In this document: in pieces, positions 3,538 to 25,160 of the stretch | Numbering within the stretch: position 1 is the first letter of the stretch | How the letters are laid out: every line of letters starts with the position of its first letter | From: a virus | IMG/VR virus record: IMGVR_UViG_3300031857_001044 | Coordinates: 1-28,347 of that record | Strand: one strand, 5' to 3' | Length of the DNA: 28,347 nt | Made by a program: the position numbers and the translations under genes | The notes under the pieces: generated by a model | Databases searched by the model: none | What the model saw: only the letters and a program-made list of their open reading frames with translations | What the model was told of the DNA's origin: nothing

Positions 3538-4670
3538 TCGGCGAGTTGTTCGGCCTCGAAGCGCCGGATCCAGACCGTGCAGCGGCAGTTGGGGTGCGCC
3601 GGCGGCAGCGTCATCGGGCCCTGGGGTGTGTTGAAGGGCTGACCGAACTTGACCCCGCGCTTGGGGTTCATGGCCGGGATGGGACCGCAGATCTCGCACA
3701 AGCGCTCGTCCCGGGCGACGATCCATTGCCGGCGGACGAGCTGCTCTGGCACCTTGAACTCGTCGATGGCCTGCCGCCAGGCGTCCTGGATCCCGAAATT
3801 GGTCGTCCTCAGCGCCTCGGTCCGGGCGATCGTCTGGGCCCGGAACTGCAGGTACTTGCGCGAGTAGGCCGCCACCATCTTGTCGATCTGGGCCTCGGTG
3901 AGCGGCTTGCCGGTGGCCATGGCGTTCTTAAGCGTGCCGTCGAAGCGGAAGTCGCGCAGCCGGCGCTCCAGGATCCCGTCCTTGACGTTCCCCTCGGCGT
4001 CCAGCGCGTAGGTCTGGGCTCCGCCCGGGGCGCGGGAAATCTTGCCGCCCAGGTTCCAGCCCGCGGCCCCGCCGCGCAGGTGGAAGCTCTCCAGCTCCTT
4101 CTTGAAGTTGTCGACCGCCTTGGCCTGGCGGGCGGTCAGGCCGATGACGGGCTTGATCGAGCGGGCCTGGTCGCGGGGGTTCTGCCCGGCGCGCATGCCG
4201 GAGATGAGCACCTCGCGCACGCCCTCCCGGGTCGTCTCGTCGATCTGGCGGATAAGACCCAGGCTGTAGGTCTGCAGCCAGTCAATCAGGCGCGGGTTGA
4301 GGCGGTTGAACTGGAAAGCGGCCCCGGCGATGCGGTCGTTGATGGTCTTGGCGGCGACCCCGCCGGCGGACCAGACGGTGTCCTGCAGGGCGTTGGTGAC
4401 CCCCTCGGCGGGCGGCAGCTGCAGGAGGGCCATGACCTTGTTCACGTCCCCGGATTTGAGGGCCTCGGCAATGGCGTCGATATCCACGGCCGCGGCCTGG
4501 GCCTGGAGCGCGCCCAGGATGGCCTTGGACAGGCTCGGCTCCAGCTTGGCGGCCATGGCCTCCACCTCGGCCAGGTCGGCCGGCCGGCGGGCCTTCGTGA
4601 TGGCCTCGGGCGGCATCCAGGCGGGAACGAGGCGGCGGTAGGGGCCCTGCGGGTGTGCGGTAAATGTCAC
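3534..4670 (-). CDS. MuF-type head morphogenesis protein
   Basis: 378 aa from GTG 4670, chosen because GGAGGT lies nine bases upstream; an in-frame TTG at 4694 has no such site. The C-terminal half is a phage Mu gpF (SPP1 gp7-like) domain: an ARTEALRTTN helix, then QWIVARDERLCEICGP, and the terminal HPNCRCTVW signature with paired Cys/His probably binding zinc. The N-terminal 150 residues are helical and Ala-rich, as is usual for minor head proteins that contact the portal. Family members are minor capsid proteins needed for head assembly or DNA ejection. It lies two genes after portal in the same direction (with a rightward island between), the canonical portal-MuF order. Its promoter would lie in 4671-4746, shared with a divergent rightward promoter. 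Confidence 0.9.
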   Translation of the reverse strand: MTFTAHPQGPYRRLVPAWMPPEAITKARRPADLAEVEAMAAKLEPSLSKAILGALQAQAAAVDIDAIAEALKSGDVNKVMALLQLPPAEGVTNALQDTVWSAGGVAAKTINDRIAGAAFQFNRLNPRLIDWLQTYSLGLIRQIDETTREGVREVLISGMRAGQNPRDQARSIKPVIGLTARQAKAVDNFKKELESFHLRGGAAGWNLGGKISRAPGGAQTYALDAEGNVKDGILERRLRDFRFDGTLKNAMATGKPLTEAQIDKMVAAYSRKYLQFRAQTIARTEALRTTNFGIQDAWRQAIDEFKVPEQLVRRQWIVARDERLCEICGPIPAMNPKRGVKFGQPFNTPQGPMTLPPAHPNCRCTVWIRRFEAEQLAD

Positions 4671-4688
4671 AGAAATGATACCTCCGAC

Positions 4689-4717
4689 TTGCAAAAGGCG
4701 CGTGTTGCGCTCATTAT
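4689..4717 (+). promoter_or_regulatory. Rightward promoter 1 with dyad in the spacer
   Basis: -35 TTGCAA (4689-4694), 17-base spacer, -10 CATTAT (4712-4717). The spacer ends with GGCGCGTGTTGCGCT (4697-4711), an imperfect inverted repeat (GGCGC-n5-GCGCT) directly abutting the -10. The same arrangement recurs at 6471-6499 and 9819-9848. A repressor bound here would block RNA polymerase. The predicted transcript starts about 23 bases before the gene at 4747. Confidence 0.75.
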
Positions 4718-4746
4718 GCGCTCACCCTAAACCAAACGGAGGATGA

Positions 4747-5139
4747 ATGAGCACACCCAAACCCACCGAGTTTCAAAGCCTGCGGCTCGCCCAGGCGGCG
4801 CCGGCGATGTACCAGGCGCTCAAGGAGCTGGAGCCCAAGCTCCAGTTTATCAGCCAGGCCGAGGCCTGGGACAACCGGACCCGCGCCGCCGCCATGGTCG
4901 CCTGGGCCACGGCCGAGTCGGCCATCGCTGAGGCGGAGCGCCGGGAGGGCGAGGTCACCCTGCAGCCACCCGCCAGCGAGCTCGCTCTGATCCTGCAGGA
5001 GATGCTCGACGCCGAGCAGGACTGGCTCACCTCGACGGCGGTGCCCGAGGACTACCAGCGCGCCCGCGCCCGCAAGATCGCGGCCACCGGGCAGGCCCGG
5101 CTGTTCCTGGAGATGCTGAAAGGGGCCAAGCTATGCTGA
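4747..5139 (+). CDS. Hypothetical helical protein, first gene of rightward island A
   Basis: 130 aa, not recognised. ATG 4747 is preceded by GGAGG at 4738-4742. An ATG at 4743 in another frame is less likely, because only the 4747 frame couples to the next gene through an overlapping stop and start. The protein is rich in Ala, Glu and Leu and predicted almost all helical, with no cysteine cluster, signal peptide or membrane segment. It is the first of seven overlapping genes (4747-6456) transcribed against the surrounding head operon from promoter 1. Function unknown; position suggests an accessory (moron-type) cargo gene. Confidence 0.75.
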   Translation: MSTPKPTEFQSLRLAQAAPAMYQALKELEPKLQFISQAEAWDNRTRAAAMVAWATAESAIAEAERREGEVTLQPPASELALILQEMLDAEQDWLTSTAVPEDYQRARARKIAATGQARLFLEMLKGAKLC

Positions 5140-5354
5140 AGATCCGCCGCCCCCGCCCGGCCATGGTTCCAGCCCCGGCCCTTTCCTGGCGCGCCGACCC
5201 CGATTCCGCGATCGTGCAGCGCGCCCTCCTGCACCGCCAGCGCGACCCGCGGCTGCAGCCCGAGCCCTTGTGGCGAGCGATCGCCGGCGGCTTCCTGTTC
5301 TGGCTGCTGATGATCGGCCCGGTCCTGGCCTATGTCTGGTGGCTGCTCGGGTGA
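5133..5354 (+). CDS. Small single-pass membrane protein
   Basis: 73 aa, not recognised. The ATG overlaps the last bases of the previous gene, so translation is probably coupled. The N-terminal 45 residues are Arg/Pro-rich and soluble (KIRRPRPAMVPAP). Residues 48-72 form one strong transmembrane segment (AIAGGFLFWLLMIGPVLAYVWW) ending almost at the C-terminus. By the positive-inside rule the basic N-terminus is cytoplasmic, giving a tail-anchored topology. No lipobox. Small membrane proteins in phage accessory islands are often involved in superinfection exclusion or membrane sensing, but nothing here proves that. Confidence 0.7.
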   Translation: MLKIRRPRPAMVPAPALSWRADPDSAIVQRALLHRQRDPRLQPEPLWRAIAGGFLFWLLMIGPVLAYVWWLLG

Positions 5355-5623
5355 CGCCCAGCCCGTCCATTCCGCAGGGCGTGTTCGAGGCCACCCGGGA
5401 CGAGGTCCTGGCCATGGCCGCGGCCGAGTCCGAGCGGCGGATGCAGGGCCTGGCCCGCTACCTGATCGACCACTACCCCGAGACCGCGCAGGGCAAGCAG
5501 GCCCGGCGGTCCTTCCTGGCCGGCTTCGAGCAGAAGCACGGCCCGAACCTGCGCCAAGACCTGGAGGCCCGAGCCCGGGCCTATTGGTCAAGCCGGCGCC
5601 AACAAGAGGAAAAACCCGTATGA
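5351..5623 (+). CDS. Hypothetical protein
   Basis: 90 aa, not recognised. The GTG start overlaps the upstream TGA (GTGA), typical coupling in this island. The protein is charged and helical, for example a run of DEVLAMAAAESERRMQ-like residues, then a Tyr/His patch (ARYLIDHYPET) and an aromatic/basic C-terminus (AYWSSRRQQEEKPV). No metal site or membrane segment visible. The coupling on both sides supports a real gene even though the function is unknown. Confidence 0.65.
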   Translation: MTPSPSIPQGVFEATRDEVLAMAAAESERRMQGLARYLIDHYPETAQGKQARRSFLAGFEQKHGPNLRQDLEARARAYWSSRRQQEEKPV

Positions 5624-5832
5624 CCACCCCGAACGACCGCAAGGTCGACTGCTACCAATGCCGGCACCGCAGCGAGCTAGACTGGTCGCCGAATTCCCGC
5701 TGCAACAACCTCATCGCCATGCCCAAGGCCGACCCGCACGGCGTGGCCAAGGGCTGGTGCATCTGGCCGATCTATTTCGATCCGGCCTGGATACTCGAAT
5801 GCAAGGGCTTTGCGCCGAAGGATCCGGAATGA
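5620..5832 (+). CDS. Small cysteine-rich (zinc-finger-like) phage protein
   Basis: 70 aa. Starts at ATG 5620, overlapping the preceding TGA. It carries CYQCRHR near residue 11, a third Cys about 17 residues on, then GWCIWPIYFDP and a terminal ECKGF. This C-x2-C ... C ... C spacing followed by W-P-FDP-W and CxGF is a recurring pattern in small phage and prophage proteins of unknown role, probably a zinc-binding fold. The next gene also encodes a C-x2-C pair protein. Function unknown; the fold assignment is by motif only. Confidence 0.75.
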   Translation: MTTPNDRKVDCYQCRHRSELDWSPNSRCNNLIAMPKADPHGVAKGWCIWPIYFDPAWILECKGFAPKDPE

Positions 5833-6032
5833 GCTCATCGAAGAACGCCGTCGAAAACCAGGTGCGTAAAGCCAGCGAGCGCCTCACCGGCCTGAAATTC
5901 TGCTTCTCCTGCAGCAAGGAGCGGCCGGTCGAAGGTGGCGGCATGCGCAAGAACAGCTGGAAGTGCGCCCATTGCCTCAAACGGATCTCGACCACCTGGT
6001 ACGGGCGCGAGCCTAAAGGGGGGGCCAATTGA
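5829..6032 (+). CDS. Small zinc-ribbon protein
   Basis: 67 aa with two C-x2-C knuckles: CFSC at about residue 25 and CAHC about 22 residues later, separated by a basic Gly-rich stretch (KERPVEGGGMRKNSWK). This is a classical four-cysteine zinc ribbon; the basic surroundings suggest nucleic-acid binding. The ATG overlaps the upstream stop (ATGA) and its own TGA overlaps the next start. Such small zinc ribbons in phages often modify transcription or translation, but no specific family is recognised here. Confidence 0.75.
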   Translation: MSSSKNAVENQVRKASERLTGLKFCFSCSKERPVEGGGMRKNSWKCAHCLKRISTTWYGREPKGGAN

Positions 6033-6133
6033 CCGCGCTCATTGCCGCATTTCTCCTGGCCCACTTCGAGGCCGCCTGGGGCTGGTGGGTCGCCTGGACC
6101 GTGCTGGTGCTCGCCGGAGGGTTTCGCCGATGA
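6029..6133 (+). CDS. 34-residue single-TM micropeptide
   Basis: TTG start at 6029 overlapping the preceding TGA, with a run of seven G (6018-6024) acting as ribosome binding site, and a TGA that overlaps the ATG of the next gene. The product is 34 aa and almost entirely hydrophobic: a TALIAAFLLAHFEAAW start, then GWWVAWTVLVLAGG, ending FRR. That is one membrane helix with a basic cytoplasmic end. It exactly fills the space between two coupled genes, which is the main evidence that it is translated. Function unknown. Confidence 0.55.
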   Translation: MTALIAAFLLAHFEAAWGWWVAWTVLVLAGGFRR

Positions 6134-6456
6134 GCAGCCACTTGCCACCATCGCCGCGTCACCTGGAGGTCGAGCGCCTGGTCTTGAAGGGCCTCTCGGT
6201 CAAGGAGATCTCGGCCATCCTCAATATTGCGCCATCGACGACCCGCTGCCACGTGACCGAGCTGCTGCACCGACGCGGCTGCCGGGACCGCCGGGAGCTG
6301 ATCGCCGATCGTCTGTTCGAGCTGCAGGGCCTGGTCATGGACATAGCCGAGTGGGCCTGGGGCATGCCGGTCCCGCCGACGAGCGCCGTCACTCTGCAGG
6401 AGCGTGTGGCGGCCGCGACGGGCGTCAAGTTCAAGGACTACCGGCTCGTCGCGTAG
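6130..6456 (+). CDS. LuxR/GerE-type HTH regulator (DNA-binding domain only)
   Basis: 108 aa. Residues about 9-60 match the GerE/LuxR four-helix DNA-binding domain: LEVERLVLKGLSVKEISAIL, the recognition region IAPSTTRCHVTELLHR, then CRDRRELIA. There is no receiver or autoinducer domain, only a C-terminal helix-rich tail (about 45 residues). It ends island A and starts on an overlap with the upstream stop. Stand-alone GerE domains in phages probably act as transcriptional switches; the target is unknown. It lies just before the second dyad promoter, so it could co-regulate that site. Confidence 0.8.
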   Translation: MSSHLPPSPRHLEVERLVLKGLSVKEISAILNIAPSTTRCHVTELLHRRGCRDRRELIADRLFELQGLVMDIAEWAWGMPVPPTSAVTLQERVAAATGVKFKDYRLVA

Positions 6457-6470
6457 TGCGCTTTTGTGCC

Positions 6471-6499
6471 TTGCGATTGGCGCGTCATGCGCCGATAAT
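6471..6499 (+). promoter_or_regulatory. Rightward promoter 2 with perfect dyad in the spacer
   Basis: -35 TTGCGA (6471-6476), 17-base spacer, -10 GATAAT (6494-6499). GGCGCGTCATGCGCC (6479-6493) is a perfect GGCGC-n5-GCGCC dyad, identical over 15 bases to the copy at 9828-9842, and abuts the -10. The ATG of the HTH gene starts only six bases after the -10, so the transcript should be leaderless or nearly so. This is the layout expected of a self-repressing regulator. Confidence 0.8.
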
Positions 6500-6505
6500 C
6501 GCGGC

Positions 6506-6733
6506 ATGACCACCGATGAGTTCAACCTCCGTGCCTCGGCCTGCCTCGGCGGCCGCGGCTGGATGACCCGCCTGGCCGCCATCACCGGCGTCCATTACGC
6601 CACCGTCAAGCGGTGGGCCTCGGGCGAGCTCGTCGTCCCGGCCTACGCCTGCGCGCTGATCGAGCTCTTAGAGGTGGTGCCGGAGGCTATGCGTCCGGAG
6701 CGATTTCACCGCCAGGCGCGTCGGGCGGCATGA
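6506..6733 (+). CDS. Small XRE-like HTH protein; candidate repressor of the dyad promoters
   Basis: 75 aa. A helix-turn-helix is visible at about residues 14-52: WMTRLAAITGVHYATVKR, then WASGELVVPAYACALIELLE, the usual A..tGv...tv.rw.sG..pvp spacing of XRE-type proteins. The start at 6506 is fixed by the promoter: the -10 ends six bases upstream and there is no Shine-Dalgarno, so it is probably translated from a leaderless message. Its 3' end overlaps that of the leftward portal gene by 47 bases. Direct placement on a dyad that recurs at two other promoters makes it the best candidate for the protein that binds them; this is inference. Confidence 0.7.
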   Translation: MTTDEFNLRASACLGGRGWMTRLAAITGVHYATVKRWASGELVVPAYACALIELLEVVPEAMRPERFHRQARRAA

Positions 6734-8036
6734 AGTCCTCGGCCCCATCCTCCGGGGCCAGCGGCAGACCGGCCAGCTTGCGCAGGTGGTTCTCCAGCTC
6801 GCGGTCGGGGAAGAGCGTCGCCCCGGACTGAGCCAGCGTCTGAATAAAGGTCGAGACCTCGACCAGGTTCTGCTTCTCAAGGTCGGCCGGCACCAAGGTC
6901 GGCATCGTCGCGTAGTCGAGGCCGTTGAGCGACCAGAGCCGCGGCAGCAGATGGCGGTTGAAGGTGTCGGCGATCGACTTGGTGAAGGCGCCGAGCGCGG
7001 TGGCGAACAGCGCCGTCTTGTCGGACGAGAGCGCGAACGAGCCCACCGACTGCTGGCCCAGGAAGATGAAGTCGGCCAGGACCGAGGTGGCGATCGCCCG
7101 GTTGTAGCGGTCGATGACCTTGGAGGTGTCGAACTGGCGCGAGCCGCCGGTCGAGAGCAGCTCGAACTCGAACAGCCGGTTGCCCGAGCTGTCGCGGTCG
7201 GACGGGATCAGGATGCCTTCCTGCTGGTCGCGGCGGACCTGGGTCACCATCCGCTGCCAGGCCTGGAGGATGGCCTTGTCCTGCGCGTCGGCGGACTGGT
7301 CGAAATATTCGCCCGGAATCCGGGCCACGGGCAGGCCGGCCAGGTCGCGTTCCAGGCCGATGCCCTCGATCTCCTCGATGCGCTTCTTGAAGAACCATGG
7401 GCGGTAGGCGTTGCGCAGGATCGACCGGCCTTCCGGGTTCGACCGCTCGGCGGTCGTGCGGAACAGCAGCATCTTCTCGTAAGGGATCAGGACCTGCGGC
7501 CGCTCGATCGGCTGCTGGACGACGCCTTGCAGCGAGCCGTCCTCGGGGCTGATCTCCCAGCGGACGATGGTCTGCTGGCTGCGCAGCGCGATCTGCCGGA
7601 TGCCGATCAGGCCGTCCTCGTAGGACGAGCGGCGCGCCGGGTCGGTCTGCTTCTGGCCCAGGCGGCGCTTCCAGACGATCTCCATGGGCGCGTAGCCGTA
7701 GACGAACATCGAGCAGATCTCGCCGATGACCTCGGTCCATGGTGTGTCGAGATCGTCGAGGACTTCCTCGACGAACGTCTTGCCGGCGTCGCCTTCCTCG
7801 TCGTCGGTGGCCGCCTGGACGGTCCACTCGCATTGGCGGACGAGGGTGGTGATCGCGAACAGCATGGCCCCGACGATCGGGTCGTTGTCGGCCATCTCGC
7901 GGTAGACGCGGACCCCGCGCTCGGCGCGCAGCTCCTTGAGGAACTCCTCGGTGATATAGCCGCCATATTGGCGCAGCCCCGGGGTACCGATCGAGGTGGG
8001 GTCGAATTTGAGTTTTCCGGGTGCGACGTCAGCCAT
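6687..8036 (-). CDS. Portal protein, Mu gp29-like (DUF935)
   Basis: 449 aa, the usual portal length. The N-terminus has the LKFDPTS, GLRQYGG, YREMADNDPIVGAMLFAI pattern of DUF935/Mu gp29-like portals (ring-forming proteins through which DNA enters the head). Further along are RWEISPEDGSLQGVVQQ, YEKMLLFRTTAERSNPEGRSILRNAY, and a C-terminal SVLADFIFLGQQSVGSFALSSDKT region, all portal landmarks. The start at 8036 overlaps the terminase stop by eight bases. The acidic, Pro-rich tail (PPDAPGGEIAPDA) overlaps the convergent HTH gene. Function as portal is secure by family and by order terminase-portal-MuF. Confidence 0.92.
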   Translation of the reverse strand: MADVAPGKLKFDPTSIGTPGLRQYGGYITEEFLKELRAERGVRVYREMADNDPIVGAMLFAITTLVRQCEWTVQAATDDEEGDAGKTFVEEVLDDLDTPWTEVIGEICSMFVYGYAPMEIVWKRRLGQKQTDPARRSSYEDGLIGIRQIALRSQQTIVRWEISPEDGSLQGVVQQPIERPQVLIPYEKMLLFRTTAERSNPEGRSILRNAYRPWFFKKRIEEIEGIGLERDLAGLPVARIPGEYFDQSADAQDKAILQAWQRMVTQVRRDQQEGILIPSDRDSSGNRLFEFELLSTGGSRQFDTSKVIDRYNRAIATSVLADFIFLGQQSVGSFALSSDKTALFATALGAFTKSIADTFNRHLLPRLWSLNGLDYATMPTLVPADLEKQNLVEVSTFIQTLAQSGATLFPDRELENHLRKLAGLPLAPEDGAEDFMPPDAPGGEIAPDA

Positions 8037-9312
8037 TTAGATCTCCGGTCGGCATGCCGCCAAGCCAGGGAGAGATCTTCGTCTCCCCGCCCGGCCTCAT
8101 CGCCGTGAATATTGCGGGCGCGATCTGGCGGTGCTGCTCGACGGCCAGCGCCAGCGCCATCACGCAGTCGTCATTGTATCCCGCCGGGGCGGTGTAGCGT
8201 ACTCCGGTGCGCGTGTACTCGTACTCGAACAGCTCCAGCTCCGAGCGGATTGGTCCGTCGGGGATCTTGATGTCGCCGGACTGGATGACGACGGCCAGGC
8301 CCTCCATGAGACGCTGCTTGGACGACGACGAGAACTTGAAGCCCTCGATGGTCCGGCGCTTCTTCTGCATCCGCTCGACGATCGGATCGCCGACCCCGGT
8401 GGAGTCGACGAGCGTGCGGGTCTTGCCGACCAGGCCAAGGATGCGGCTCTCGGTCTCGTCCCATGGCACGCCCTGCCAGCGGTCGAAGCCGCAGACGGCG
8501 CGCTGCTTGTCGAGGCCCACGACCACGGTCCAGTCGACCGATTTGGCGAGGTCGACGCCGCAGGCGATCGGCGGCGCGTCGGAGATCGGGCCGATGCAGC
8601 GAGCGATGTTCTTGATGCCGAAGGGGTTCCCCTCGTCGTCGGAGGGCTCGGCCAGGTAGAGCTCGCGGAACACATTCTCCGGGAGCTGGCGCTGCGCGTC
8701 GAGGATCTCGTCCTTGTCGAGCACCCCGCCCTCGACCGCGTCCCAGGCGGTGAGCTTGGCATAAGCCATGCCGGGCTCGCCGGATTCGGCCTTCCGGGCC
8801 ATCTTGAAGTGCCAGTTGGCCCGCCCCTTGACGTTTCCAATGATCCGGACCGGACCGCGGGTGGCGGTGAGCGTCGAGCGGACCGCGATCCAGCTGTCCT
8901 CCCGGACCCGCGACGCCTCGTCGATGACCGACGCGAAGACGTCCTCGCCGTAGAGGTTGTCGGGCTTCTCGCCGGACTTGAACCAGATCACGGCCCCGTT
9001 GGGCAGGGCGATGGTGAGGTCGCCCTCGTTGGCCGCGTACATCGCCCGCGGCAGGCCGCGTTTCAGGCGGCGGAAGGCGATCTTGGCCTGGGGGTAGACC
9101 GGTGCCACCCACCAGAAGTTGCGGCCCGGCTGGCCGTGCACGACGGCCTGCTCGAACAGCCAGGCCAGGCAGCCCACGGTCTTGCCGGCCTTGGTCGAGG
9201 CCTCGATGATCCCGTAGCGGGCCGGCAGACCGTTGACGTCCGCGCAGTCGAAGATGGCCGCCTGCTGCGCCGGATAGAGCCAGGGGCGGACATATTCAAT
9301 CGTCCGCTGCAT
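8029..9312 (-). CDS. terL: Terminase large subunit
   Basis: 427 aa from ATG 9312, overlapping the small subunit by 17 bases; the frame extends further but overlaps the upstream gene more. ATPase: Walker A-like EASTKAGKT at residues 37-45, Walker B FASVIDEA at 126-133. RNase H-like nuclease: CGVDLAKSVDWTVVV with D254, LVDSTGVGD with D303, and YNDDCVMALALA with D381/D382. It cleaves concatemers and drives DNA into the procapsid through the portal. A complete, intact gene with all catalytic acids in place. The packaging type (cos or pac) cannot be read from the motifs alone. Confidence 0.95.
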   Translation of the reverse strand: MQRTIEYVRPWLYPAQQAAIFDCADVNGLPARYGIIEASTKAGKTVGCLAWLFEQAVVHGQPGRNFWWVAPVYPQAKIAFRRLKRGLPRAMYAANEGDLTIALPNGAVIWFKSGEKPDNLYGEDVFASVIDEASRVREDSWIAVRSTLTATRGPVRIIGNVKGRANWHFKMARKAESGEPGMAYAKLTAWDAVEGGVLDKDEILDAQRQLPENVFRELYLAEPSDDEGNPFGIKNIARCIGPISDAPPIACGVDLAKSVDWTVVVGLDKQRAVCGFDRWQGVPWDETESRILGLVGKTRTLVDSTGVGDPIVERMQKKRRTIEGFKFSSSSKQRLMEGLAVVIQSGDIKIPDGPIRSELELFEYEYTRTGVRYTAPAGYNDDCVMALALAVEQHRQIAPAIFTAMRPGGETKISPWLGGMPTGDLNG

Positions 9313-9802
9313 CCCTCTCGCCGATCTTGAGCGTGAAGACGACCGGCGCCTCGCCGTCCTTGCCCGGCACCTCGACCTTGCCCACCGCGCTGCGCGCATC
9401 CTGGTCGCGCCAGCCGGCCCGGGCCTTGAGGTAGAAGATCCCGGCGGTGACGACGTTCTTGTGGGTCTTGTCGGTGGCGACCGAGAACAGCGTCTTGGCG
9501 ACCTGGGCGTGGGCGAAGATGTCGCCGTGCTCCAGCTCCTCCCCGAAGTGCTTTCGGAGCGTCTTGGGGTCGATGCCCTGCGGCCAGTTGATGAGCTTGG
9601 CGACCTGTTCCTCGGTGTAGCCGACCCCGCGCAAGAGCACCACGAGCTGCCGGTGCTCGGGCTTGGGCTCGAACACCATGCCCGTTTTTTTAGTGCGGGA
9701 ACCCTCGCCTGGGCGAAAGAGGTCCTGCACCGGGGGTTTCTTGCCGGCGGCAGCAGGGCTTCGGGCAGCCGTTTTTCGGGGTTTCGGGGCCTGTTTTGTC
9801 AT
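9296..9802 (-). CDS. terS: Terminase small subunit-like DNA-binding protein
   Basis: 168 aa. A basic Lys/Pro/Ala-rich N-terminal 35 residues is followed by an HTH-like region: HRQLVVLLRGVGYTEEQVAKL then GIDPKTLRKHFGEEL, then helices (HAQVAKTLFSVATD, IFYLKARAGWRD). This is the pattern of small terminase-type proteins that recognise the packaging site and recruit the large subunit. It directly precedes terL with overlap, and is the first gene of the leftward late operon. Its start at 9802 faces the rightward promoter at 9819-9848. Small subunits diverge fast, so the call leans on the HTH plus position. Confidence 0.8.
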   Translation of the reverse strand: MTKQAPKPRKTAARSPAAAGKKPPVQDLFRPGEGSRTKKTGMVFEPKPEHRQLVVLLRGVGYTEEQVAKLINWPQGIDPKTLRKHFGEELEHGDIFAHAQVAKTLFSVATDKTHKNVVTAGIFYLKARAGWRDQDARSAVGKVEVPGKDGEAPVVFTLKIGERDAADD

Positions 9803-9818
9803 CTTCGTGATAATTCGC

Positions 9819-9848
9819 TTGCGTCTTGGCGCGTCATGCGCCTATTAT
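9819..9848 (+). promoter_or_regulatory. Rightward promoter 3 with perfect dyad in the spacer
   Basis: -35 TTGCGT (9819-9824), 18-base spacer, -10 TATTAT (9843-9848). Contains GGCGCGTCATGCGCC (9828-9842), identical to the copy at 6479-6493 and again abutting the -10. It drives the island beginning at 9875 and lies back to back with the terminase start at 9802, so a protein bound here could affect both early-island and late transcription. Confidence 0.8.
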
Positions 9849-9874: not shown

Positions 9875-10384
9875 ATGAAGCAAGAAACGCAAGCAGCAAC
9901 CGAAGCGCCGGTGCCCGCGGACAAGGCACCAAGAAGCAGTTGGAAGGCGGTGCGGGTGGGGTGGGAGGCGCTGGCCAAGGCCGGGGTGGTTCCACCGGTC
10001 CCGGATTTCCCGATGTCCAACGTGACCTACACGAAGATCTGCAGCCGGATGGCCGAGGCGGCGCTTGCCCACGACATGGTCGGGCTGGGCAATCTGGGTG
10101 CGGCGGTGAAGGGTAAGCAGACCTACGCGGTGCTCACCCGCCACTTCGCCGAAGCCTGCGTCCTAGCGGTAACGGCGCAGCTTGGGCTGGGCATCGAGGG
10201 TGGGATTCTTCACCCGGTGCCGACCCCGCCCAAGAAAAAGCCCGCGGCCAAGAAAGCCCAGGCGCCCGTGCCCTTGGCCCCGGCCGAGGACGATGCGCTG
10301 ATGGCGGCGATCAAGGCGCAGCGGACCAAGCGGGCCGCCAAGGTCGCCAAGGCCAAGACGAAGGAGGTGAACCATGGGGCGTAA
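9875..10384 (+). CDS. Hypothetical protein with a histone-like Lys/Ala/Pro tail
   Basis: 169 aa, not recognised. Start at ATG 9875 with GGAGGT just upstream; an in-frame ATG at 9863 overlaps that site and is less likely. The middle (residues 20-110) is a compact helical domain with conserved-looking stretches FPMSNVTYTKICSRMAEAAL and YAVLTRHFAEACVLAVTAQL. The last 60 residues are Lys/Ala/Pro-rich (PKKKPAAKKAQAPVP, then KAQRTKRAAKVAKAKTK), resembling a histone H1-type nucleic-acid-binding tail. First gene of island B. A DNA- or RNA-binding role is a reasonable guess, no more. Confidence 0.75.
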   Translation: MKQETQAATEAPVPADKAPRSSWKAVRVGWEALAKAGVVPPVPDFPMSNVTYTKICSRMAEAALAHDMVGLGNLGAAVKGKQTYAVLTRHFAEACVLAVTAQLGLGIEGGILHPVPTPPKKKPAAKKAQAPVPLAPAEDDALMAAIKAQRTKRAAKVAKAKTKEVNHGA

Positions 10385-10667
10385 GGTCGAGCAGAGCGCC
10401 GAGGGCTTCCTCGTGCGCGAGACGGTATCGGCGGAGGAGCGCCAGGTGACCCCGGCGTTCCCGACCGAGGACGAGCTGATCGCCTATCTGGCCAAGCACG
10501 GCGACTTCTGGGACCAGGCCGGCGGGAAAGGCCCCTGGGACCGGGTTTCGGCCACCCTCTTCGTCCGGGAGCTCAAGGAGCTGCCCACGATGATGATGAT
10601 CGGCGGGCAGCTGGTGCGCGCCCGGGAGATCCCTTTGGCCCTGATCGCCCAGGAAGGAGGTGGCTGA
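10374..10667 (+). CDS. Hypothetical protein
   Basis: 97 aa, not recognised. ATG 10374 has a strong AAGGAGG seven bases upstream, and the gene overlaps the end of the previous one by 11 bases. It begins with basic residues (MGRKVEQSAEGFLV) and contains a DELIAYLAKHGDFWD helix and TMMMIGGQLVRARE. The C-terminus, QEGGG, is encoded by the ribosome binding site of the next gene. No membrane segment or metal site. Confidence 0.72.
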   Translation: MGRKVEQSAEGFLVRETVSAEERQVTPAFPTEDELIAYLAKHGDFWDQAGGKGPWDRVSATLFVRELKELPTMMMIGGQLVRAREIPLALIAQEGGG

Positions 10668-10936
10668 TGGCCAGCGTCTGGTTCGAAACAAAGAATGGGG
10701 GCGCGCCCGTGAAGCTCGCGGGCAACCTCAGCCCCAAGGCCGCGGCGGCGGGCTTTGACGACTTCGTCAAGCGCTACCTCGCGGAGAAGCCCACCCGCAA
10801 GGCCGTGCCGTACCATCGGCTCGAAGCCCTGCTGTTCGATTCCAAGGGGGCCCTCTTCGGCCTCGTCTGGGTCGAGCTCATGTCCCCACCGTCGGCGCCG
10901 GAGCCCGGCCAGCCCAAGCGGGAAATCACCACTTAG
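10667..10936 (+). CDS. Hypothetical protein
   Basis: 89 aa, not recognised. Starts at ATG 10667, TGATG-coupled to the preceding stop, with GGAGG six bases upstream. The alternating pattern ASVWFETKNGGAPVKL, LFDSKGALFGLVWVELM suggests beta strands, with a central helix (AGFDDFVKRYLAEK). The Pro-rich end is probably disordered. Soluble, no known motif. Confidence 0.7.
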   Translation: MASVWFETKNGGAPVKLAGNLSPKAAAAGFDDFVKRYLAEKPTRKAVPYHRLEALLFDSKGALFGLVWVELMSPPSAPEPGQPKREITT

Positions 10937-10944
10937 GAGAAGCC

Positions 10945-11202
10945 ATGCGTAATTTCACCACGACTACCCCTGCCGCTCGGACCGAGCCATTTTGGATGGG
11001 AGCCTGCCTCGGCGCCCTGATGATGCTGCTCACGGTGCTGGCCTACGAGCGCCTGACCCGCCAGCCCGACCCGAGCGCGGTCACTATGCCCACCGACGTC
11101 ATCAAGGCCTACAACATGGGCGTGAAGGACGCGCTCCGGACCAACCCGCCGTCTCTCGACCTAGAATCGGTCTGCGTCGAGCTCTGGGCCAACCGGAGGT
11201 AA
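10945..11202 (+). CDS. Small membrane-anchored protein
   Basis: 85 aa, not recognised. ATG 10945 has TAGGAG eight bases upstream. The N-terminal 15 residues are polar; residues 16-33 form one membrane helix (PFWMGACLGALMMLLTVLAY), followed by ERLTRQPDP and a 45-residue soluble domain with a single Cys near the end. The topology is a type II-like signal anchor, with the C-terminal domain probably outside the cytoplasmic face if the usual charge rule holds, though flanking charges are weak. Third small TM protein in the rightward islands. Confidence 0.7.
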   Translation: MRNFTTTTPAARTEPFWMGACLGALMMLLTVLAYERLTRQPDPSAVTMPTDVIKAYNMGVKDALRTNPPSLDLESVCVELWANRR

Positions 11203-11207
11203 GCGCC

Positions 11208-11513
11208 ATGGCCATCAAGCACGCACGCATAGAAGTGAAGCGCACGGTCCGGATCAAGCTCTCGCTCACAGCCGACGACTGGCAGCTCTACGGACGCCAC
11301 GGCGAGGAGCAGTACAAGGATCGCGAGGACGTCGCTAGGGCCCTCAACCAGGCGATCGAGCTGGCCTTGAACGGGCCTGGCCCCGACCACGAGCGTGTCG
11401 CCAGGGCCTTTCGGCTGCTCGCTCAGATGACTCCGAGCCGGTTTGGCGCCAACGACACCGAAGGCCGGGGAATGCTCCACGAGATCTGCCACCTCGCCGG
11501 CATCGACCATTAA
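11208..11513 (+). CDS. Hypothetical protein with beta-strand/helix architecture
   Basis: 101 aa from ATG 11208 (GGAGG 12 bases upstream, a slightly long spacing). It opens with HARIEVKRTVRIKLSLTADDW, a basic strand-strand-helix start reminiscent of ribbon-helix-helix-like proteins, then EDVARALNQAIELALN, and ends with FGANDTEGRGMLHEICHLAGIDH. Not matched to a named family with confidence. It could be a small DNA-binding regulator of island B; this rests on overall shape only. Confidence 0.7.
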   Translation: MAIKHARIEVKRTVRIKLSLTADDWQLYGRHGEEQYKDREDVARALNQAIELALNGPGPDHERVARAFRLLAQMTPSRFGANDTEGRGMLHEICHLAGIDH

Positions 11514-11533
11514 CCCACCCACCAAGGAGACGT

Positions 11534-11881
11534 ATGAACACCTCGACTTTTCTGAAGACCGCGGCCCTCGGGCTCGCCTTTCTCACCGCCCAGGCCAGCG
11601 CCGAGTTTCTCGACGGCAACGAGCTTCACATCCGCATGAACAGCAGCGAGACCTGGGAGAAGGCCTACTCCTACGGCTACGTGGCCGGGGTCACCGACGC
11701 CGGCCTCGGGGTCACGCATTGCGCGCCGGCCAACGTCACGCTCGGCCAGGTCATGGATTTGGTCAGGAACCACCTGGCGCAGCACCCCGAGCGCCGGAAC
11801 CGCAGCGGCGACATCCTGATCAACCAGGCGCTGCGGGCGGCCTGGCCGTGCCCGCAACGGTCGCGGGGGCAGGGCACATGA
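11534..11881 (+). CDS. Secreted Rap1a/Tai-like protein
   Basis: 115 aa. Residues 1-23 are a clear Sec signal peptide (FLKTAALGLAFLTAQASA, cleavage after A23). The mature part follows the Rap1a/Tai family plan: FLDGNEL, YSYGYVAGVTDA, HCAPANVTLGQVMDLV, LAQHPERRN, and INQALRAAWPC, with C63 and C106 able to pair. Founding members are periplasmic immunity proteins that neutralise type VI secretion amidase effectors (Tae4 type). Phages also carry relatives whose partners are unknown. AAGGAG precedes the ATG. In a phage this could protect the host from rivals or modulate the phage's own cell-wall enzyme; only the family likeness is seen here. Confidence 0.8.
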   Translation: MNTSTFLKTAALGLAFLTAQASAEFLDGNELHIRMNSSETWEKAYSYGYVAGVTDAGLGVTHCAPANVTLGQVMDLVRNHLAQHPERRNRSGDILINQALRAAWPCPQRSRGQGT

Positions 11882-12087
11882 CCAGCGACGAGCTCCCGTG
11901 GTCGTTCGCTGACGGTCACGTGGTCGGCCACGTGATGGTCACGAACCTTTCACGCGCCCGATGCACCATCTGCGGCGCTACCATAGCGATCGGGCAGTCA
12001 GACGGCCTCGGCGAGATCGTCGAGACCGTCGACACCTTCGCCCGCCGTCACCTGCACGGGAAGCCGACCTACCCCATCGACGAATGA
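11878..12087 (+). CDS. Small CxxC protein
   Basis: 69 aa, ATGA-coupled to the preceding gene. Contains a single CTIC knuckle at about residue 27, preceded by VVGHVMVTNLSRAR, and a C-terminal TFARRHLHGKPTYP segment with two histidines that could complete a zinc site (C2H2-like). Not recognised as a named family. Similar C-x2-C ... H proteins are common in phage early operons. Confidence 0.7.
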   Translation: MTSDELPWSFADGHVVGHVMVTNLSRARCTICGATIAIGQSDGLGEIVETVDTFARRHLHGKPTYPIDE

Positions 12088-12476
12088 GCAAGCCGCGCAA
12101 GAAGTATCAGCCAAAGGTGATCAAGGTCCCGGTGACAGGGGGCCTGGTCGCGTCCTTCCGGCAGACGTTGCGCGACTGCGAGATCGCGATGCGGATCGCG
12201 CCGAACGACAAGAGCTTTGACGGCTTCGCGCAGATCTTCAACGTCATCGGCCTGGCGGCGCACCGGGCGGTCCCGACCGACCCGGACCTTCGGCTCTTGC
12301 AGTCCGGGGCCCTTTCCCTGCAGCAGATGGCCCAGAGCCACGAGCGGACCGGGAAATGGATCATCGGCCCGCTCGACCTGCAGTCCCTGGTGATCGCCGG
12401 TCAGGCGGCGCAGCGGCTCTTGACCCGGCTCGACGTCGCCACCCTCTACCTGGCGTACCGCGAGGTGTCTGCGTGA
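12084..12476 (+). CDS. Hypothetical helical phage protein
   Basis: 130 aa, ATG overlapping the preceding TGA. The N-terminus is basic (SKPRKKYQPKVIKVPV). The rest is helical, with FDGFAQIFNVIGLAAHRA, LQSGALSLQQMAQSHERTGKW and DVATLYLAYREV. Proteins with this 'ALSLQQM..SHERTGKW' pattern occur in phage accessory regions without assigned function. No membrane or metal site. It overlaps the next gene by GTGA. Confidence 0.72.
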   Translation: MSKPRKKYQPKVIKVPVTGGLVASFRQTLRDCEIAMRIAPNDKSFDGFAQIFNVIGLAAHRAVPTDPDLRLLQSGALSLQQMAQSHERTGKWIIGPLDLQSLVIAGQAAQRLLTRLDVATLYLAYREVSA

Positions 12477-12856
12477 TCGACGTCCCGCTCTACCTGCGGA
12501 CAGTCTTTGCGGCCGGCGACGACGGGATCCTCACCGAGAAGGTGGCGGCCAAGCTCGACGTCGACTTCCACGAGGCCCGCTCGATCCTGGAAAGCCTGTT
12601 TCGGGCGCGCAAGCTCTCGCGGCTGCCGAACCCGCGGGGGCGCGGGCTGGTCTGGCGGATCCCCAAGCGGGGCGACGCGGACGCCGGGCTATTGTGGGAG
12701 CCGGGCTCGGGCGACTTCCGGGTAGACCCCGCGGTGCTGCGGGCCATCCAAGGCGTCAAGGGGGCCAAGGGGCGCCTCATCAAGGCCAAGCGCGGGCCCA
12801 AGCCCCACCAAGCCGACAAACCGGCCCCGAAGGCCGGCCAGCTCGAACTCTTCTGA
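12473..12856 (+). CDS. Winged-helix-like protein ending in a clamp-binding motif
   Basis: 127 aa from GTG 12473, coupled to the preceding TGA. Residues 1-65 look like a winged helix: VPLYLRTVFAAGDDGILTEK, LDVDFHEARSILESLF, then basic RARKLSRLPNPRGRG and VWRIPKRG as the wing. The C-terminal third is Lys/Pro-rich (KAKRGPKPHQADKPAPK) and ends exactly in GQLELF, which matches the bacterial sliding-clamp-binding consensus QL(S/D)LF. The inference is a DNA-binding protein tethered to the host beta clamp. It ends one base before the stop of the leftward gene at 12857. Confidence 0.72.
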   Translation: MIDVPLYLRTVFAAGDDGILTEKVAAKLDVDFHEARSILESLFRARKLSRLPNPRGRGLVWRIPKRGDADAGLLWEPGSGDFRVDPAVLRAIQGVKGAKGRLIKAKRGPKPHQADKPAPKAGQLELF

Positions 12857-15005: not shown

Positions 15006-15020
15006 GGCGCATCACGCACC
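15006..15020 (-). promoter_or_regulatory. Degenerate copy of the dyad operator
   Basis: On the minus strand this reads GGTGCGTGATGCGCC, two mismatches from GGCGCGTCATGCGCC, preceded by TT and followed by TTTTGC where the other copies have their -10. The -10 and -35 are poor, so I call an operator-like site only. It lies between the methyltransferase and DUF932 genes, 34 bases from the -35 edge of the rightward promoter's -10 element. Confidence 0.45.
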
Positions 15021-21923: not shown

Positions 21924-22931
21924 ATGTCGACCAACGTCCGGGCGCTCGCCGCGCCCGCCAACCAGGGAGGGGCGCTGGCCCTCTCCGAAGCGGACCTCGT
22001 CCAGGTCCTGAAATCCAGCTTCTACCCCGGGGCCACCGACGCCTCGATCAAGATGGTCATCGCCTACTGCAAGGCGGCCCAGCTCGATCCGATGCTCAAG
22101 CCCGTCCACATCGTGCCCATGAACGTCAAGAAGCCCGGGTCCCGCGACTCCGAGTGGCGCGACGTCGTCATGCCCGGCATCGGCCACTACCGCATCCAGG
22201 CCACCCGCTCCGGCGTCTATCTCGGCAAGACCGAGCCCGAGTTCGGCCCGGACGTCGAGAAGACCATGGGCGGCAAGAAGGTCACCTTCCCGCAATGGTG
22301 CCGGGTCACGGTCAGGAAGGCCGTCGGCAACCAGGTGGCCGAGTTCACCGCCCGCGAGTTCTGGCTGGAGAACTACGCCACCGCCGGCCGCGACACCGAC
22401 GCGCCCAACGCCATGTGGGCCAAGCGGCCCTACGGCCAGATCGCCAAGGTCGCCGAGGCGCAGGCCCTGCGGCAGGCCTTCCCGGAGCTCCTGGGCGGCA
22501 CCAACACGGCCGACGAGATGGAGGGCAAGGCGCTCGACGAGGGCTTGATCGACATCACCCCGAACCCGCCCGCCAGGCCGCCGGCCGCGGCCAAGCAGGC
22601 CCTGGACGCCTTCGCCGGCAAGACCATCGAACCGCCGCGGCAGGAGGCCAAGGCGGACGCCGACGACCCTTTCGAGAGCGACGGCACCCTGCCGGAGCTG
22701 CCGCTCGACGTCGTGACCGCCTTCCACGAGAGCGGCAAGTGGATGCCGGCCTGGAAGTGGATCAGCCAGAACATGGACGGGATCGACCCGGCGATCCGCC
22801 AGGACTTCGTCGACGAGTACGCGGCCATCCTCAAGGCGGTCCGGGACTACAACGAGAAGTACGCCCAGGCGGTCGCGGACTTCCTCAACCGCTACGGGGT
22901 AAGCCTCAATGAAGCCGACAACGCGTCCTGA
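21924..22931 (+). CDS. bet: Bet/RecT-family single-strand annealing protein
   Basis: 335 aa, AAGGAGG before the ATG, three bases after the exonuclease gene. Residues 20-190 match phage Bet/RecT: ATDASIKMVIAYCKAAQLDP, KPVHIVPMNV, DVVMPGIGHYRIQATRSG, MWAKRPYGQIAKVAEAQALR. The C-terminal 140 residues are longer than a minimal Bet: Pro/Ala-rich and acidic (DDPFESDG), then a helical region with HESGKWMPAWKWISQNMDG. Partners with the YqaJ exonuclease in end-joining recombination of phage DNA and concatemer formation. Confidence 0.93.
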   Translation: MSTNVRALAAPANQGGALALSEADLVQVLKSSFYPGATDASIKMVIAYCKAAQLDPMLKPVHIVPMNVKKPGSRDSEWRDVVMPGIGHYRIQATRSGVYLGKTEPEFGPDVEKTMGGKKVTFPQWCRVTVRKAVGNQVAEFTAREFWLENYATAGRDTDAPNAMWAKRPYGQIAKVAEAQALRQAFPELLGGTNTADEMEGKALDEGLIDITPNPPARPPAAAKQALDAFAGKTIEPPRQEAKADADDPFESDGTLPELPLDVVTAFHESGKWMPAWKWISQNMDGIDPAIRQDFVDEYAAILKAVRDYNEKYAQAVADFLNRYGVSLNEADNAS

Positions 22932-24262: not shown

Positions 24263-24585
24263 GCCGGCACACCCCAGGACCCTGGCACTACATCGGCGAC
24301 AGCCTCACCCACCGGCAATTCGGCGTCTACGCCTGGGGGCAGAGCCCGCAGGAGCACGTCTGCACCGTCAACGACCTGCCGGTGCCGCTCCTCTGGCAGC
24401 GCGACCCCGACGTGGCGATCGCCAACGCCCGCCTGATCGCGGCCGCGCCCGACTTGCTGAAGGCGCTCCGTCAAATAGTGAGCCAGATCGACCAAGGCGG
24501 AAGCGAAGGGAAGGTGTTTGCGCGTGATAACTGCATCGCCGCAGCCCGGGCCGCCATCGCCAACGCGACCGGAGATGCTGCATGA
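24259..24585 (+). CDS. Small phage protein (HTPGPWH family)
   Basis: 108 aa, ATGA-coupled, GGGAGG upstream. SRHTPGPWHYIGDSLT at the start and ANARLIAAAPDLLKALR in the middle are the hallmarks of a very common phage and prophage family of unknown function. C-terminal helix AAARAAIANATG. Often found among nucleic-acid metabolism genes, as here. Confidence 0.85.
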   Translation: MSRHTPGPWHYIGDSLTHRQFGVYAWGQSPQEHVCTVNDLPVPLLWQRDPDVAIANARLIAAAPDLLKALRQIVSQIDQGGSEGKVFARDNCIAAARAAIANATGDAA

Positions 24586-25160
24586 AGGAGCGTCCGATCC
24601 TGTTCAGCGGGCCAATGGTCCGCGCCATCCTCGACGGCCGCAAGACGCAGACAAGGCGCGTTGTGAAGGCGTGTCATATGGTCATGGACCATGGCGAAGA
24701 TGCGGCCGGCAATTGCATCAACGCTGGCTACATTCCAGCGATTCCACTTTGCCCCTACGGTCGGCGCGGAGACCGCCTCTGGGTGAGGGAGACGTGGTCG
24801 CAGCATCCGCGCTTCGCGGACGTGGCCTTCCGCGCCGATGGCGACGAGTTCGAGGACAGCGACGGGTTCCTCTGGGCCCCGAGGTGGAAGCCCTCGATCC
24901 ACATGCCACGCTCCCTGTCGCGCATCCTGCTCGAAGTGACCGGCGTGCGCGTGGAGCATCTCAACGAGATCAGCGGTGCGGACTGCATCGCCGAGGGCAT
25001 CGTCGAGGCCGAGGCGCCACAGTACGTTTTCGGGCTGCACGAGGCCTATCGCGACCTCTGGGAAAGCATCAACGGCCCGGGCTCCTGGATCACGAACCCC
25101 TGGGTCTGGGTGGTCGAGTTTCGGCGCGTCGAGCCGGGCTCCCGGAAGGAGGCCGCATGA
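24582..25160 (+). CDS. ASCH-like phage protein
   Basis: 192 aa. KERPILFSGPMVRAILDGRK then TQTRRVVK, CPYGRRGDRLWVRETW, and a C-terminal SWITNPWVWVVEFRRV mark the ASCH/PUA-like family often annotated 'morphogenetic protein' in phages. ASCH domains bind RNA or modified nucleotides; the TQTRR segment is the conserved basic surface. Its exact role in phage is not known. Coupled on both sides (ATGA). Confidence 0.88.
   Translation: MKERPILFSGPMVRAILDGRKTQTRRVVKACHMVMDHGEDAAGNCINAGYIPAIPLCPYGRRGDRLWVRETWSQHPRFADVAFRADGDEFEDSDGFLWAPRWKPSIHMPRSLSRILLEVTGVRVEHLNEISGADCIAEGIVEAEAPQYVFGLHEAYRDLWESINGPGSWITNPWVWVVEFRRVEPGSRKEAA

Follow-up and report, generated by a model that had tools for sequence, protein, structure and literature searches.

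Three promoters in a single phage genome carry a 15-bp dyad between their -35 and -10 elements, which raises the question as to which protein reads these dyads and what becomes of the genes behind them. The genome, referred to as the window, is a virus record of 28,347 bases (IMGVR_UViG_3300031857_001044; G000 in what follows) and was compared with relatives found among viral contigs. The comparison points to HTH6506, a small helix-turn-helix (HTH) protein encoded immediately behind one of the three promoters: most likely it is a repressor that binds the dyads as a dimer and shuts the accessory promoters as well as its own. The features read from the sequence are the geometry and conservation of the sites, the co-occurrence of dyad and HTH gene, the conservation of the recognition helix, and whether or not corresponding promoters hold the operator.

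A palindrome filling the promoter spacer

The dyads of the window, their promoters and the genes that they head are the following.

4689-4717, plus strand: promoter of accessory operon A, with -35 TTGCAA, a 17 bp spacer AAGGCGCGTGTTGCGCT holding dyad 4697-4711, and -10 CATTAT.
4697-4711, unstranded: dyad GGCGCGTGTTGCGCT, candidate operator, 16.2 bits.
4747-6456, plus strand: accessory operon A, six small open reading frames (ORFs), the last (6130-6456) encoding a LuxR/GerE-type HTH protein (Pfam GerE, 3.3e-9).
6448-6462, unstranded: weaker dyad, 12.5 bits, overlapping the end of ORF 6130.
6471-6499, plus strand: promoter of the HTH gene, with -35 TTGCGA, a 17 bp spacer TTGGCGCGTCATGCGCC holding a dyad, and -10 GATAAT.
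6479-6493, unstranded: dyad GGCGCGTCATGCGCC, candidate operator, 20.6 bits.
6506-6733, plus strand: gene of HTH6506, 75 amino acids, proposed autorepressor (orthologues, structural model and Aca-like fold below).
9819-9848, plus strand: promoter of accessory operon B, divergent from terS, with -35 TTGCGT, an 18 bp spacer CTTGGCGCGTCATGCGCC holding a dyad, and -10 TATTAT.
9828-9842, unstranded: dyad GGCGCGTCATGCGCC, candidate operator, 20.6 bits.
9875-12856, plus strand: accessory operon B, about nine small ORFs with functions mostly not assigned; the first start, 9875, was set by eye and the gene caller chose 9950.
15006-15020, unstranded: weaker dyad GGCGCATCACGCACC, 15.1 bits, between the ParB-methyltransferase gene (minus strand) and ORF 15114 (plus strand), with no clear -10 adjoining.

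An earlier, sequence-only reading of this stretch had placed dyads at 4697, 6479 and 9828 between a TTGC -35 and a -10 element, and the letters bear this out: the dyad directly abuts the -10 at all three. The same reading had claimed identity over 15 bases at three promoters, a slight overstatement, as dyads 6479 and 9828 are identical and dyad 4697 differs at three of the 15 positions. Its description of two rightward accessory islands and an HTH gene headed by dyads stands, both operons and the HTH gene running rightward with the portal, terL and terS genes leftward between them. The window also holds two weaker dyads, 6448 and 15006, the latter without a clear -10 beside it. Across records, the consensus of the dyad is the 15-bp palindrome GGCGCRYNRYGCGCC, whose GGCGC arms have their centres ten base pairs from each other, roughly one turn of the DNA helix and the spacing that would be expected for a symmetric HTH dimer; the exact dyad 15-mer had no occurrence in a literature search.

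Motif counts alone are weak evidence, since plain counts are only modestly enriched: GGCGC-N5-GCGCY has seven matches on both strands of the window against a shuffle mean of 1.82, with two of 100 shuffles reaching seven, and a looser dyad pattern allowing three mismatches is not in excess (69 against 63.8 expected). The analysis thus turned to placement and conservation. A rule asking for -35 and -10 elements around any 15-mer is satisfied by 294 of 56,574 strand-positions in the window and by three of its 14 GCGC-N5-GCGC strand-places (binomial 5e-5); it is this placement, and not the count, that is unlikely by chance. In the eight records with dyads, 28 of 260 GCGC-N5-GCGC strand-places fall in promoter spacers, whereas 17 control arms give six of 1272 (Fisher 4e-17); some of these records are related to one another, and of the 28 placed rows two are doubtful, one looking like a chance GC run and the other being the opposite strand of a counted dyad. 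In a relative without dyads, G005, none of 28 such strand-places meets the promoter rule. Of 35 listed dyads, 32 are intergenic.

These figures bear on whether the dyads are operators at all or RNA hairpins, or features of promoter or GC composition. The genomes are GC-rich, and 260 GCGC-N5-GCGC strand-places in eight records leave room for such an explanation; however, other GC-rich dyads are seldom placed in promoter spacers, the dyads lie upstream of the predicted start and would not be transcribed, and the corresponding promoters of G005 manage without them, so that the explanation is barely credible.

The position between -35 and -10 is also the classical layout of MerR, which needs a spacer of 19-20 bp, and HTH6506 could be imagined as an activator that works through the spacer in the MerR fashion, the more so as it has a weak MerR_1 match (E 0.1) and the sole TTG -35 of two dyads stands at 21 bp. 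The match lies below the Pfam cut-off, however, and in 19 of the 26 dyad promoters listed a TTG -35 is found at 16-18 bp, with hexamers near consensus (e.g. TTGACT-18-TATGAT, TTGATT-17-TATAAT). Most dyad promoters should thus work unaided by a MerR-like activator, and a dimer sitting on them would stand in the way of the polymerase, which makes activation distinctly unlikely.

Dyad and HTH gene across the relatives

Relatives were gathered in three ways. A scan of viral contigs with TerL gave nine loci, among them G001 (L005; TerL 91% to the window), G005 (L006; 74%; without dyads and without HTH6506), G002 (L007; 67%), G003 (L008; 67%) and G006 (L009; 52%). G007 and G008, near kin of each other whose tail genes are common with the window, were found by HTH alignment alone. 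Two viral-contig scans with dyad-plus-promoter patterns returned six contigs, four of them known HTH carriers and two new: G011 (43 kb), in which no protein but the HTH has a significant match among the window ORFs (the best of the others has an E of 0.007), and G010 (L041), a 7.3 kb fragment of 53% GC. A further record, G004 (L018), is contig IMGVR_UViG_2846966018_000003.

In these records the dyad goes with the HTH gene. Orthologues of HTH6506 are present in G001, G002 and G003, and no homologue was found in G005, G006 or G009; dyads lie in promoter spacers of the same G001, G002 and G003 and not of G005 or G006. Both contigs that were fetched by their HTH alone have spacer dyads: in G007 and G008 the HTH gene is immediately preceded by a TTGATC-16-TAGAAT promoter with dyad, which ends seven nucleotides short of the ATG. 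G011, fetched by its dyad promoter alone, proved to encode an HTH protein with the same TVKRW helix (42957-43190), in an operon headed by one of the two dyad promoters of that contig; it scores 27.8 bits against a profile of the six close HTH proteins, the next best score being 10.1 bits in a six-frame search of 17 records (527 kb), and it is not the last gene, as a further ORF starts right after it at the contig end. Altogether, seven of the eight records with an HTH6506 homologue have promoter-embedded dyads; all seven retain the recognition helix YxTVKRW, even G011, whose HTH is 32% identical overall.

Among window ORFs of at least 50 amino acids compared with nine other records, HTH6506 is the only one whose protein matches G001, G002, G003, G007, G008 and G011 but not G005 or G006. 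This supports the regulator role that the sequence-only reading had proposed for it: HTH and dyad each predicted the other, and no other window protein tracks the dyad. Besides HTH6506 the phage has genes for at least three HTH proteins, and the dyad might be bound by one of these (the XRE proteins at 22909 and 20548 or the LuxR-type protein at 6130), HTH6506 being only another target. XRE22909, however, has a 67% match in the dyad-less G005 and none in the 43 kb of G011 (nor in G001, G003 and G007, but those are short fragments); the LuxR-type protein matched only G001 among the loci compared; and a second operator family shared with G005, described below as O2, needs a binder of its own. With the dyad tracked by HTH6506 only, control by another of these proteins is unlikely.

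HTH6506 itself appears to be built into the circuit. The dyad in the promoter of the HTH gene, with six to seven nucleotides from -10 to ATG, recurs in six of six close orthologues (the -35 being weak in G002 and G003), and in G011 the inverted repeat stands at the head of the HTH-containing operon. In the window the distance is six nucleotides, and the HTH6506 message is thus predicted to be leaderless. A second dyad lies upstream of the HTH-promoter dyad, start to start, at 31 bp in the window (6448), 33 bp in G001 and 30 bp in both G002 and G003; none was seen before the HTH gene of G007 or G008. The own-promoter dyad in all six orthologues, together with the second dyad upstream, suggests the design of an autorepressor.

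The promoters of the two accessory operons can be followed as well. The dyad promoter of operon A, divergent from the tail genes, has counterparts with dyad at G001 11691, G007 3535, G008 2922 and G002 13234, and that of operon B at G001 4528, G002 1558, G003 12762 and G008 18115. G005, which lacks the HTH, has dyad-free promoters at the corresponding terS-divergent (TTGCTT-17-AACAGT) and tail-divergent (TTGCAA-17-AACAGT) places, the latter being the best-scoring reading of its region; both lie after an O2 site and have GTCACC behind them, with a spacer sequence unrelated to that of the window. The G005 counterparts suggest an apparent operator replacement, and the dyad thus looks like an exchangeable promoter insert that goes with the HTH. 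The notion of a regulon is likewise sustained, as spacer dyads recur at accessory operons in eight contigs. Some relatives have more than three such promoters, and the HTH gene would be among the targets.

The use of host operators is common among phages, and the dyad could accordingly be the site of a host transcription factor; that G010 carries a dyad without a detectable HTH homologue would fit. This is very unlikely, given that the TTGA form of the promoter-embedded pattern had no match in 84,980 species genomes (the TTGC form was not scanned) and that the dyad goes with the phage HTH and not with the phage backbone. A small HTH gene of G010 (6690-6926) that ends a dyad-headed operon was considered as a homologue, but its score of 7.1 bits equals background and it was not accepted. 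Beyond the viral contigs, an INPHARED search (50,697 records) with HTH6506 and the HTH proteins of G011 and G010 gave no match at E<=0.01, and a search of genome contigs with the HTH alignment gave 83 candidate stretches, none confirmed.

An AlphaFold2 (AF2) model of HTH6506 has a mean predicted local distance difference test score (pLDDT) of 90.6 and four main helices. In VIA-align, where families absent from the listing are not thereby excluded, its top fold matches are Aca2 chains, with Z scores of 8.1 and 8.0 over 69-71 residues of this crowded HTH fold; SO3848, NE0471, MqsA, Aca10 (6.6), HigA2 and Aca1 (6.5) come after them, and other HTH proteins follow closely.

Several points weigh against HTH6506 as the repressor of a dyad regulon. 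Dimer binding, repression, timing and the role of the cargo are inferred; every record is a fragment of an uncultured phage; and the promoter rule was written only once the first sites had been seen. L018 has a distant HTH homologue (9971-10195, 35-37% identity to HTH6506, recognition helix changed) without any promoter-embedded dyad and is kept as a negative, and G010 has a near-perfect dyad promoter (5402-5422, TTGATT-17-TATAAT) without a recognisable HTH6506 homologue in its 7.3 kb. The HTH carrier G003 was not picked up by the dyad pattern scans. In the other seven of the 26 dyad promoters, the TTG -35 either lies at 21 bp only (two) or is missing (five, among them those of the HTH genes of G002 and G003), and some high-scoring dyads have no clear promoter (e.g. 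G002 7107, G007 6034, G008 5410). The terS-divergent promoter of G005 ranks third in its region and was chosen by position. Lastly, the Aca match falls in a crowded HTH fold, where a Z near 8 can reflect a common arrangement, and Foldseek gave no match at E<=0.001.

A proposed Aca-like repressor with several operons

In the proposed mechanism, a HTH6506 dimer would bind the 15-bp palindrome, and since this fills the spacer between -35 and -10 of sigma-70-type promoters, bound repressor and RNA polymerase would exclude each other. One site lies in HTH6506's own, predicted leaderless promoter, and the others head operons of small genes, whose direction in the window is opposed to that of the late genes. 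Once the DNA has entered the cell, the dyad promoters would fire from the host polymerase; as the repressor builds up, it would silence all of them together with its own gene, in a delayed shut-off by negative feedback of the Aca or Cro kind.

The same layout, a palindrome filling the promoter spacer, is found with Aca2 of Pectobacterium phage ZF40: its aca2 promoter, as read from the record in which gp30 is Aca2, consists of TTGCTT, a 16-bp palindrome, A, and TATAAT, the palindrome being presumably the published IR1. Aca families have an inverted repeat in the core promoter and in some cases another one close by (PMC9410906). Aca repressors and HTH6506 have in common a small HTH autorepressor, proposed as such for HTH6506, and an inverted repeat inside the core promoter. 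Of the fold neighbours of HTH6506, NE0471, SO3848, 5JAA and Aca1 are given as neighbours of Aca10 too (PMC9410881). HTH6506 differs from Aca in that its proposed sites stand at several promoters per phage and not at one operon, in its own predicted leaderless promoter, and in that no known acr was found among the 83 cargo proteins scanned. Aligned with ZF40 Aca2, the one Aca family compared by hhalign, it gave a probability of 1.4% and no sequence homology, and its profile had no match at E<=1 among PDB sequences, though Aca1, 2, 7, 10 and 11 are among the PDB chains. With no homology to Aca2 or PDB chains and no family named for anti-CRISPRs listed for the cargo, HTH6506 is not filed as an Aca; most likely it works like an Aca with several operons.

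Other systems in which one regulator serves many sites offer further comparisons. In archaeal viruses, one consensus regulatory sequence marks many early small genes together with aca8 and has been proposed as an anti-defence marker (PMC11065993). The likeness lies in one regulatory sequence at many genes and at the regulator's own gene; that system differs in its archaeal TATA/B-recognition element (BRE) promoters, in its predicted winged-HTH protein, and in a cargo that has been partly validated, the HTH6506 cargo being known from sequence alone. The repressor of cluster A mycobacteriophages has many genome-wide stoperator sites, asymmetric ones that halt elongation as well (PMC9283540). Stoperators thus resemble the dyads in being many sites for one phage repressor, and differ in that the dyads are palindromic and many of them lie in promoter spacers. 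Phage P1 C1, a large protein with scattered asymmetric operators, and lambda Cro/CI, where the cI message is leaderless, are alike in being multi-operon autoregulated phage repressors; unlike P1 C1, the dyad system would pair a 75-residue protein with a 15-bp palindrome, and a second operator family exists apart from it. The Aca2 structure paper mentions that a stand-alone homologue, YdiL, possibly binds distant sites (PMC8434428). Among the titles and beginnings of abstracts of open-access papers on Aca and phage operators, one Aca-like autorepressor over several bacterial-phage operons was not found, the nearest being the archaeal Aca8 work (PMC11065993).

As a more tentative extension, the HTH6506/dyad pair may be a transferable module of otherwise unrelated phages, one that replaces operators inside existing promoters and joins operons into an Aca-like self-limiting regulon; the dyad would then be a genome-wide tag for anti-defence genes (anti-CRISPR, anti-restriction), the bacterial counterpart of the archaeal Aca8 sequence. 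If the Aca-like reading is true, one Aca-like autorepressor would govern several phage operons, and the operons headed by dyads would form a short list of counter-defence candidates. The proposed regulator-operator pair derives wholly from metagenomic sequence and is well supported; the natural comparison is between corresponding promoters that have the dyad and those that lack it, matched to the presence of the HTH.

Cargo genes and a second operator family

The HTH gene comes right after a dyad-headed operon of small genes in the window, G007 and G008 and lies inside one in G011; in G002 and G003 it is not at an operon end. In four phages the ParB-domain/N6_N4 methyltransferase gene, too, has a dyad just upstream (G002 58901, G003 3683, window 15006, G001 858), with a clear -10 only in G002 and G003, where the proposed targets comprise the accessory operons and the methyltransferase operon. 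Genes in or beside dyad-headed operons, a few neighbours being not strictly downstream, make up a set of 83 cargo proteins; it omits ORFs below 40 amino acids, the G008 operon that duplicates that of G007, most of the G002 and G003 methyltransferase operons, and the far end of one G003 operon. Six of the 83 have a homologue in G005 or G006. Scans of the cargo returned mostly no named function, apart from two LuxR-type HTHs and single matches to pyrophosphatase, endolysin, GNAT and Rap1a; NCBIfam gave chiefly LuxR-type regulators, and PADLOC one clear match, in one of the 83 proteins, to the phage-defence candidate PDC-M57A (4.5e-9), its others being weaker. No family named for anti-CRISPRs was listed for the 83 in PHROGs (25 of 29 matching families), Pfam, NCBIfam or PADLOC, scans whose recognition novel Acrs would escape. 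The LuxR/GerE-type HTH that ends operon A (6130-6456; L005 9186-9359) may be an additional regulator that acts downstream of the dyad network.

A second palindrome, O2, T[GAT]TCA-N6-TGA[CTA]A (mostly TATCAY...RTGATA), has 22 sites in seven of ten records compared, 21 of them between genes, against two sites for a control with reversed arms. It is found in the window, G001, G002, G003, G007, G008 and the dyad-less G005 (six sites), and is absent from G006, G010 and G011. This distribution agrees with the earlier suggestion that the dyad regulon is separate from the other switch of the phage. Besides 15048, 20120 and 20860, the O2 sites of the window are two that lie outside the dyad module:

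4665-4680, unstranded: O2 TGTCACAGAAATGATA, 32 bp upstream of dyad 4697.
9797-9812, unstranded: O2 TGTCATCTTCGTGATA, 31 bp upstream of dyad 9828 and overlapping the start codon of terS.

In G001, G007 and G008, O2 and dyad lie 30-32 bp apart (start to start) at these same kinds of promoter. XRE22909, which is common to G005, G008 and G002, is a candidate binder of O2. At G005 24440-24640 and 39280-39470 (L061), an O2 (tail) or partial O2 (terS) stands just after the -10 in place of the dyad. In the window, the terS start codon (9802) falls inside O2, with AATTAT seven bases upstream on the minus strand, a placement that makes a leaderless terS message possible.

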